Source of the DNA: Faunimonas pinastri
GTDB lineage: Bacteria; Pseudomonadota; Alphaproteobacteria; Rhizobiales; Afifellaceae
Direction: 5' to 3'
Assembly (NCBI RefSeq): GCF_900110915.1
Contig: NZ_FOFG01000002.1
Location: 124,001-188,000, forward strand
Length of the DNA: 64,000 bases
The position numbers and the translations under genes were made by a program. Below the pieces are notes generated by a model. It saw only the letters and a list, made by a program, of their open reading frames with translations, made no database searches and was not told the DNA's origin. Of this stretch, positions 54,918-60,302 are shown in pieces (position 1 is the stretch's first letter; each line of letters starts with the position of its first letter).

Positions 54918-55169
54918 TTGCAGGTGATCGTCCGCGACAACAATGTCGAACAGGCCATCAAGGTTCTCAAGAAGAAGATGCAGCGTGAAGGCGTTTTCCG
55001 CGAGATGAAGCGCCGTTCGGCTTTCGAGAAGCCTTCCGAGCGTCGGGTCCGCGAAAAGGCCGAAGGCATGCGTCGCGCCCGCAAGCAGGCGAAGAAGAAG
55101 GCCCAGCGCGAGGGTCTCCTGCCCGCGCCGAAGCCGCGGGTCGCTGCCCGAGGCGGCGCCCGTCGCTAA
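54918..55169 (+). CDS. rpsU: 30S ribosomal protein S21
   Basis: An 83-residue basic ribosomal protein: [20 protein letters not shown], then [20 protein letters not shown], then Arg/Lys-rich helix ending in [15 protein letters not shown]21 sits near the 3' end of 16S rRNA and helps initiation. The start is TTG at 54918 with an AAAGGA site seven bases upstream; no ATG exists close by. A strong terminator follows. TTG start is noteworthy for a ribosomal protein. Confidence 0.95.
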
Positions 55170-55220: not shown

Positions 55221-55250
55221 CACCGCCCCTCACCGGGCGGTGTTTTCGTT
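55221..55250 (+). terminator. Intrinsic terminator of rpsU
   Basis: A perfect 8-bp stem (CACCGCCC / GGGCGGTG) with a CTCACC loop is followed by TTTTCGTTT. Confidence 0.9.
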
Positions 55251-55331
55251 TCCGGCCTTGCGCGCCTTGAGGCACACCAAGCAACCATGACGGAGTTCAC
55301 GCCGTTTCCCCTGTCTCGCGAGGGGTGATGC

Positions 55332-56393
55332 ATGGCCGAACGACCGTCGAAGCAGAGCTCCAGCTTTCCCAAGCATGGAAGCATGTGCCTGCCGCTGGCT
55401 GAGGTCCTCAGCTACAATCTGGAAATCGAGGAAGGCGACGGCTTCATCGGCGACCAGGCCAGCAAGTCTGCGCTGCTCGACATCATCCAGGGCCTGCGCG
55501 ACCTCCTTCCGGAAAACGCCGATCCACTGGGCGACGATCCGATGGAGGAGTTCGGCAAGGACCGCCTCGACACTTTGCTGACCGAAGGCGACTTCGCCGC
55601 CGCCGGGCTCCTCCATGCCGCGATTGAGGAATTCTCCGGGCGGCTGGAAAAGATCATCCGCCGCTTCCTGCGCCTGAAGGCGTGGCGGGAAACGGAGCGC
55701 ATCGTGATCGGCGGCGGCGTGCGGCAGAGCCGGATGGGCCAGATCGCCATCGGGCGCACCGCCACCCTCCTTCGCAAGGGCGGCATCGATATCCGACCCG
55801 TGCGCCACCATCCTGACGAGGCGGGCCTCATCGGCGCCGTCCACCTCGCGCCTTCCTGGATTTTCGCGGGCCACGACAGCATCCTCGCGCTCGATATCGG
55901 CGGCTCCAACATTCGCGCCGGTGTCGTGCGGCTCGATATCGGGAAGCATCCTGACCTGACGGGCGTCGAGGTCTGGCAGTCGGAGCTCTGGAGCCATTCC
56001 GACGAGGATCCGAAGCGCGACGAAGCGGTCGACCGCACGGCCGAGATGCTGCAGCGCCTGCTCCGCAAGGCCGACAAGGAAGGCCTCCACCTCGCGCCCT
56101 TCATCGGCGTCGGCTGCCCCGGCGTGATCGGCGAGGATGGTTCCATCGATCGCGGCGCGCAGAACCTGCCCGGCAATTGGGAAAGCAAGGGCTTCAACCT
56201 GCCGGACGAGCTACGCGACCGCGTGCCCAGGATCGGCGATCACGAGACGCTGGTCCTGGTGCACAACGATGCCGTGGTTCAGGGGCTGAGCGAGGCGCCG
56301 TTCTGCCGCGATGTCGGTCACTGGGCGGCGCTGACCATCGGCACGGGGCTCGGCAACGCGAGCTACGCCACGCGAGATGCCGAAGACGAGTGA
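55332..56393 (+). CDS. ROK-family protein with circularly permuted motif order
   Basis: A 353-residue protein. The N-terminal half carries what is usually the C-terminal half of a ROK sugar kinase: a helix (AAAGLLHAAIEEFSGRLEKI), RIVIGGGV at 123-130 and PDEAGLIGAVHLA at 161-173. The ATP-binding N-terminal half then follows: LDIGGSNIRAG (187-197), GCPGVIGEDGSI (261-272), the expected catalytic Asp in HNDAVVQ (D313) and LTIGTGLGN (334-342). The ROK zinc motif is absent. The protein stops right after the glycine loop. I recall similar proteins in other rhizobia, so this is a family trait, not a broken gene. Its phosphate acceptor is unknown; it may be a kinase or a regulator. GAGGGG precedes the ATG. 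An orphan ABC ATPase and xylB follow. Confidence 0.8.
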   Translation: MAERPSKQSSSFPKHGSMCLPLAEVLSYNLEIEEGDGFIGDQASKSALLDIIQGLRDLLPENADPLGDDPMEEFGKDRLDTLLTEGDFAAAGLLHAAIEEFSGRLEKIIRRFLRLKAWRETERIVIGGGVRQSRMGQIAIGRTATLLRKGGIDIRPVRHHPDEAGLIGAVHLAPSWIFAGHDSILALDIGGSNIRAGVVRLDIGKHPDLTGVEVWQSELWSHSDEDPKRDEAVDRTAEMLQRLLRKADKEGLHLAPFIGVGCPGVIGEDGSIDRGAQNLPGNWESKGFNLPDELRDRVPRIGDHETLVLVHNDAVVQGLSEAPFCRDVGHWAALTIGTGLGNASYATRDAEDE

Positions 56394-59051: not shown

Positions 59052-60302
59052 TTGGTTCGGTCGACGGCCGGGCGCGGCACCAATTCGGTGCAGCTGCGCC
59101 GCTACAATGAGCGCCTGATCCTGCAGATCCTTCGCCGCGCCGGCGAAGCGTCGAAGGCCGAGCTCGCGCGCGCCTGCGACCTCACGCATTCCGCCGTGGC
59201 GGTCATCATCGACCGCCTGGAGGAAGCCGGCCTGGTGACGGAGACAGGTCGCCGCCAGGACGGCAGCCGCGGCCAGCCCGCAGCCCTTTACCGGCTTGAT
59301 CCCAAGGGCGCTTTCGGCATCGGCGTCCGTCTGGACCGGCGCGCCATGGAAACCGTGCTGGTGGATCTCGCGGGCACGCTGATCGCCCGCCGCTCGCACG
59401 ACCACCTGCTTCCCGGGCCGCAGGAGGCGCTGGCAATCGTGGCTTCCGACGTGCGGGAACTCCTCGCGCTCCTGAACGACGACAACCGCGAGCGGCTGGC
59501 GGGAATCGGCGTGGCGCAGCCCTACAATCTGGGATCGTGGCTGGCGGAACTGGAACTGGCGGACCAGAGCCTCGGCGTCTGGGACGCGGTCGACTTTCCC
59601 ACGCTGCTGGAAGCGGAAATCGGGCTGCCCGTCTCCGGCGAGAACGACGGGACCGCGGCGGCGATCGCCGAACTCTTCTGGGGGCTGGGGCGCTCGATCG
59701 ACGATTTTCTCTATCTCTTTATCGGCGCGGCGATCGGCGGCGGCATCGTGCTCGACGGCGATTGCCGGCGCGGCGCGACGGGCAATGCCGGCGATATCGC
59801 GGTGTTCGCCGTCACGCACAGCCATCTGCCGTCGGCACCACCGCGCGGAGCACAGCGCGATATCCTGCTGACGCGCGCCTCCCTCAATTCGCTGATCCGC
59901 CACCTCCGCTTCAACGACCAGGAAGCGTCGAGCCGTTGGGCCCTGGAGCAGCGAATTCGGGAAGGGCAGCCGGCCGTCTCGGAATGGCTCGACGACTGCG
60001 TCGAGGCCCTCGCCTCGGTGATCTGGCCCGCCACCCTGCTTCTCGACTTTGCGACTGTCGTCATCGACTCGGACGTGGATGGAGGAATGATCAACGAACT
60101 GAACCATCGGCTCGCATCATCATTGATGGAGCAAGCGCCGGAAGGCTGCCGTCCTCCCCGCCTGATGCATGGAACCTTCGGGTTCAATGCCGGGGCAATG
60201 GGGGCGGCGAGCCTGCCGATGTTCTTCAACTTCTCGCCCCGCGCATCGATTCTGACGCGTGGGGCCAACGCCGGAGCCCGCAATCATGCAGCAGCAGACT
60301 GA
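59052..60302 (+). CDS. ROK family transcriptional regulator (XylR/NagC-like)
   Basis: A 416-residue repressor. Residues 15-75 form a winged helix ([20 protein letters not shown], then [19 protein letters not shown]). A ROK sugar-binding domain follows with [11 protein letters not shown] at 197-207 and [15 protein letters not shown]. The usual ROK zinc motif (CxCGxxGCxE) is missing, replaced by [11 protein letters not shown]. It probably senses a sugar or its phosphate and controls the ABC genes below. TTG 59052 has a strong GGGAGGA site. Its 3' end overlaps the start of the ABC ATPase by 17 bp, so they are co-translated. Confidence 0.9.

Follow-up and report, generated by a model that had tools for sequence, protein, structure and literature searches.

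Does a gene of the window, the whole stretch of 64,000 nucleotides analysed here, encode a sugar kinase of the ROK family whose two halves have exchanged places, and what would such an enzyme do? The initial annotation had described a swapped motif order within an intact, well-coded frame, and both statements were upheld: the 353-residue product carries RIVIGGGV (residues 123–130), HPDEAGLIGA (160–169), DIGGSN (188–193), GCPG (261–264), HND (311–313) and IGTGLGN (336–342) in this order. The open reading frame at 55332–56393 runs from start to stop without an internal stop, and its GC content at codon positions 1, 2 and 3 (0.71/0.44/0.85) is of the coding type and resembles that of the adjacent genes. 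The features referred to below are as follows:

55332..56393, + strand: whole gene of the permuted ROK protein, intact ORF of 353 aa
55374..55871, + strand: N-terminal half, residues 15–180, corresponding to the ROK C-terminal (large) domain (hhalign, own structure model)
55374..55376, + strand: H15, invariant, aligned with the His of ROK ExGH, which binds sugar and zinc (profile alignment)
55422..55463, + strand: degenerate zinc region, residues 31–44, aligned with CxCGxxGCxExxxS (profile alignment)
55710..55718, + strand: GGG, residues 127–129, ROK/ASKHA adenosine-site motif, invariant (alignments)
55809..55838, + strand: HPDEAGLIGA, residues 160–169, ROK C-terminal helix motif (alignments)
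55845..55877, + strand: new linker, residues 172–182, from the old C-terminus to the old N-terminus (lying between the two profile matches)
55878..56378, + strand: C-terminal half, residues 183–349, corresponding to the ROK N-terminal (small) domain and the first large-domain strands (hhalign, NCBIfam, structure)
55893..55910, + strand: DIGGSN, residues 188–193, phosphate-1 motif, aligned with ROK DxGGT (alignments)
56112..56123, + strand: GCPG, residues 261–264, ROK GxPG motif, CPG invariant (alignment)
56160..56180, + strand: QNLPGNW, residues 277–283, counterpart of the ROK sugar-site segment (alignment)
56262..56270, + strand: HND, residues 311–313, invariant, N312-D313 aligned with ROK ND (alignments)
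56340..56357, + strand: GTGLGN, residues 337–342, phosphate-2 motif, invariant, near the new C-terminus (alignments)

A bS21 (rpsU)-like ribosomal protein gene is located directly 5′ of the permuted gene (window 54918–55169); a GC-rich hairpin and a T-rich stretch follow 3′ of it near 55221–55251, where a terminator scan made no call. The window also holds a ROK-type regulator with its halves in the normal order (59052–60302), which adjoins a sugar ABC transporter and xylB; the genome has nine PF00480 matches, this regulator included. The genes beside the permuted one, xylB and an amino-acid ABC ATPase, were rejected as functional partners since the neighbourhood is not conserved, and they probably say nothing about function.

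Order of the two halves

The window protein is not recognised by the Pfam ROK model, and when its sequence is un-permuted and compared with Pfam and NCBIfam the N-terminal half still goes undetected. Single-sequence HMMs being too weak, a profile comparison was needed, and a profile of 26 aligned homologues was therefore compared by hhalign with a profile of 26 ordinary ROK kinases from other loci; the window protein is 49–58% identical to the family members aligned. In the native order residues 183–347 match ROK columns 4–144 (E 1e-10) and residues 35–175 match ROK columns 180–301 (E 2e-7, or 4e-8 for this half alone). Cutting the profile at 180/181 and rejoining it yields a single match that spans ROK columns 4–301 (E 3.8e-17). 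When the cut is moved in steps of 15 through 24 rotations, the score peaks at 124.1 before residue 181, compared to 80.7 in the native order, and falls off beyond, such that this rotation restores a collinear ROK alignment better than the others. Column-shuffled profiles score 14–25 in the same test and give no match, shuffling of the N-terminal half alone returns the score to about 81–84, and reversed profiles do not match the ROK profile. Pfam ROK itself matches 24 of the 26 homologues (best 1.2e-12); in the one homologue inspected, model positions 2–151 fall on the C-terminal half. The two swapped profile matches and their fusion upon rotation at 181 thus bear out the earlier proposal that the C-terminal ROK half precedes the N-terminal one.

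Structure prediction points the same way. The full protein, modelled by AlphaFold2 with the family alignment (pLDDT 85, pTM 0.81), matches ROK kinases, hexokinase, MreB and actin, consistent with a predicted two-lobe RNase H-like ASKHA fold. For residues 180–319, human N-acetylmannosamine kinase 2yhy gives a match over its N-terminal domain (Z 12.0, 2.3 Å over 118 residues, VIA-align), and other ROK kinases do likewise. The N-terminal half modelled alone reaches a pLDDT of 72 and folds poorly by itself, probably since the other half completes its sheet. ROK or other ASKHA-fold sugar and pantothenate kinases nonetheless make up 37 of the top 38 rows of its structural neighbours, and the alignments fall mostly on the second halves of these proteins (e.g. 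3r8e 144–293, 4db3 141–295). The fold match is weak (Z 5–7.7, Foldseek E 0.2) but consistent, and the expected placement of residues 1–180 on the C-terminal half of solved ROK kinases is in this sense supported rather than proven. The small N-terminal domain of NagK also takes in the C-terminal helix (PMC10031466), which puts the old termini into one domain and makes their joining by a short linker plausible; the linker of the window protein carries a conserved L-x-P-x-W. The swapped profile matches, the predicted structures and the conservation of the order in homologues hence all support circular permutation of the ROK (ASKHA) fold.

Motifs kept and lost around the sugar site

The catalytic and ATP-binding motifs of ROK proteins (DxGG, GxPG, ND, GTGxG and GGG) are all present with invariant core residues. 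D188 holds the metal-ligand position, and the D, GG and N of DIGGSN are invariant; D313 holds the position of the ROK catalytic base, for which D105 (base) and D6 (metal ligand) of NagK provide the reference (PMC10031466). QNLPGNW is invariant save for the nearly invariant N282, N278 falls on the conserved Asn of ROK kinases, and T338 aligns with the Thr of GTGxG. The aligned motif positions place the new termini beyond the GTGxG hairpin and ahead of the ExGH loop, and thus inside the sugar site.

The zinc region, on the other hand, was thought to have been removed, and here the earlier reading needs correction: the region sits at the new N-terminus in degenerate form, ahead of the helical segment, GGG and HPDEAGLIGA. 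H15, whose putative role is given by its counterpart H157 of NagK (PMC10031466), is retained, and FxGD and S within residues 31–44 are conserved in the family. All three cysteines are lost, their positions being taken by E31, E33 and F38, and so are two sugar-binding glutamates: G40 stands in place of the Glu of GCxE, and the variable F12 in place of the Glu of ExGH. The zinc motif (His plus CxCGxxGC) is not universal among ROK proteins. With the ExGH Glu and the zinc cysteines gone, the ability to phosphorylate hexoses could have been lost as well.

Homologues, neighbours and promoters

A search across the order found matches in 60 of 397 genomes, the window's own genome counted; 56 of them are long, and the long ones are 44–60% identical. 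The class sample yielded matches in 17 of 385 genomes (16 strong), and five genomes outside the class have one. On plasmids 206 records match, mostly from Rhizobium and Sinorhizobium, and many are annotated ‘ROK family protein’. No homologue was found in ten further genomes of the family to which the window belongs, which makes the distribution patchy, and a search for phage homologues returned none. About 80 distinct homologues were collected from Hyphomicrobiales, other Alphaproteobacteria and a few organisms outside the class, and the gene is conserved in numerous bacteria associated with soil or plants. The normal ROK order, which might have been expected to surface in close relatives, is found in none: all full-length homologues aligned have the swapped order. 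With dN/dS at 0.05–0.20 in eight close homologue pairs, the permuted gene is under purifying selection.

Some homologues, found among L059, L060 and further matches from the class sample and from outside the class, have in-frame stops (two TAG in G517, one TGA in G751, one TAG in G744 and one TGA in G1079), so that in certain lineages the gene is either undergoing decay or wrongly sequenced. For G176 and G198, two full-length permuted copies were seen within one genome.

The trehalose-6-phosphate phosphatase gene otsB lies 0.1–3.8 kb upstream in 13 of 61 loci, and three families are represented among these. It is divergent at 97–302 bp in the loci of Rhizobiaceae and of family f20, and on the same strand at 147 bp to 3.8 kb in Hyphomicrobium-type loci; four otsB loci include otsA and four a GH15-type gene. 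Most loci have no otsB near the permuted gene, and several of those that do come from closely related Rhizobium. Next to the window copy there is no otsB, the single one of its genome being located elsewhere. In Sinorhizobium the divergent neighbour encodes a peptidase of the system for NAGGN, an osmoprotectant; a copy on a Bradyrhizobium plasmid has ferritin-like, PRC-barrel and Hsp20 genes in its vicinity. Stress genes may cluster through shared regulation alone. Trehalose production in Bradyrhizobium diazoefficiens is under general-stress control (PMC6599016).

The S. meliloti homologue is located at about 477.1–478.1 kb of pSymB. SM_b20472 has been named as an ornithine carbamoyltransferase, arcB2 (PMC7268258); the Pfam model OTCace_N finds no match anywhere on L121 (NC_003078.1, S. 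meliloti 1021 pSymB), and the arcB2 label of SM_b20472 may refer to another enzyme.

The promoter of the general stress factor EcfG/RpoE2 has been given for one species as GGAAC-N17-20-GTT, with N counting the base before GTT (PMC6599016). Clustering at 80% identity gave 43 clusters from the 80 distinct homologues, and the region from -160 to +25 was searched: GGAAC-N16/17-[CG]GTT occurs 5′ of 18 of the 43 clusters, whereas among the remaining ORFs of these loci it precedes 12 of 596 (2%; Fisher p 8e-16). If the -10 box is restricted to CGTT, matches arise solely at spacers 16 (11 clusters) and 17 (5 clusters), and none of the clusters has one at spacers 10–15 or 18–23; the motif is found in reverse orientation in four clusters. 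It is missing from all four clusters outside the class (L075, L076, L154 and L155), as one would expect of a system confined to Alphaproteobacteria. Upstream of 55332 the window copy shows neither a strict EcfG site nor one at spacer 16 with one mismatch. For the family as a whole, the motif makes a strong case for membership in the EcfG regulon.

Candidate functions and relation to known systems

We consider it moderately probable that the gene encodes a permuted ROK kinase that lacks zinc, is induced by stress and has a link to osmolyte metabolism, possibly that of trehalose; its kinase activity, its induction under stress and its osmolyte role are what we infer from sequence. The old termini would be joined by the linker of about 11 residues while the new ones lie in the sugar-site loop, and the two lobes would close around ATP-Mg and the acceptor, with the conserved D313 putatively acting as general base and D188 binding the metal. 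The acceptor, a sugar or a glycoside, would probably not be a classical free hexose, because the hexose-holding Glu residues are lost and the loop opened. Family members would act in the alphaproteobacterial general stress response, as their EcfG/RpoE2 motif suggests, and probably in osmolyte metabolism, for which the neighbouring genes make trehalose the best candidate. The stress and trehalose parts are extrapolated for the window copy, because it has neither the promoter motif nor trehalose neighbours. A bolder version, whereby the opened pocket phosphorylates a non-reducing sugar, for instance trehalose to trehalose-6-phosphate in opposition to the neighbouring OtsB during general stress, seems to us improbable.

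The main rival is a permuted ROK glucokinase of ordinary chemistry that would convert free glucose arising in stress, for example from trehalose turnover, into glucose-6-phosphate for OtsA. The closest NCBIfam families are indeed polyphosphate-glucose phosphotransferase and ROK glucokinase, GxPG, the sugar-site Asn, ND and H15 are retained, and the GH15-type gene accompanies otsA and otsB in some loci; yet the Glu positions of ExGH and GCxE are not conserved and the scores fall far under the curated cut-off (25.8 versus 250 bits), and we regard this rival as possible though unlikely. Rather more doubtful still is a non-catalytic ASKHA protein that senses stress by binding a sugar or nucleotide and phosphorylates nothing. 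Regulators do exist among ROK proteins, the zinc ligands are gone and the loop at the sugar site lies open, and the gene adjoins otsB or the NAGGN-system peptidase instead of sitting within a catabolic operon. Against this, the residues at the catalytic-base and metal-ligand positions do not vary among the aligned homologues, nor do any of the ATP motifs, and a DNA-binding domain is absent, the stretch before H15 being short and modelled with low confidence. That the swapped order is an artefact, of chance motifs or of a rearranged or misassembled gene, might be suspected from the failure of Pfam to recognise the window protein even when un-permuted; this reading is refuted by profile statistics with clean controls, by the identical order in the homologues from many assemblies and by purifying selection, and keeps a practically negligible probability.

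The permuted kinase that we favour has several known relatives. In the open-access literature searched, no paper on a permuted ROK or ASKHA kinase turned up, subscription papers falling mostly outside that coverage, and priority is uncertain; PGAP labels the homologues only ‘ROK family protein’. The top single-sequence family match is to polyphosphate/ATP glucokinase (PPGK, NF045942, PDB 1woq; residues 186–343, 7.7e-6). PPGK has the normal half order, however, and membership was rejected, the window protein reaching 25.8 bits against the NF045942 cut-off of 250 bits. The beta-glucoside kinase BglK (NF042998), a ROK kinase that acts on substituted glucosides, is matched weakly by 19 of 26 homologues; its order is normal and the similarity weak only. 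With the EcfG/RpoE2 regulon many homologues share the upstream motif and neighbours such as otsB, the NAGGN-system peptidase, ferritin-like and Hsp20 genes; the window copy differs in having no motif. The likely link to EcfG and trehalose would give a concrete role to a protein annotated merely as ‘ROK family protein’.

With the ROK kinases proper (PF00480: glucokinase, NagK and ManNAc kinase) the protein shares DxGG, GxPG, the sugar-site Asn, ND, GTGxG, GGG and AGLxGA as well as the two-lobe fold; it differs in that its halves are swapped instead of running from N-domain to C-domain, that the zinc cysteines and two sugar-binding Glu are missing, and that its new termini lie in the sugar-site loop. 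If this is true, it would represent a natural circular permutation affecting an entire two-lobe sugar kinase of the ASKHA fold that many bacterial families have conserved and, since the cut is placed within the substrate loop, a clean case of how such enzymes tolerate rewiring.
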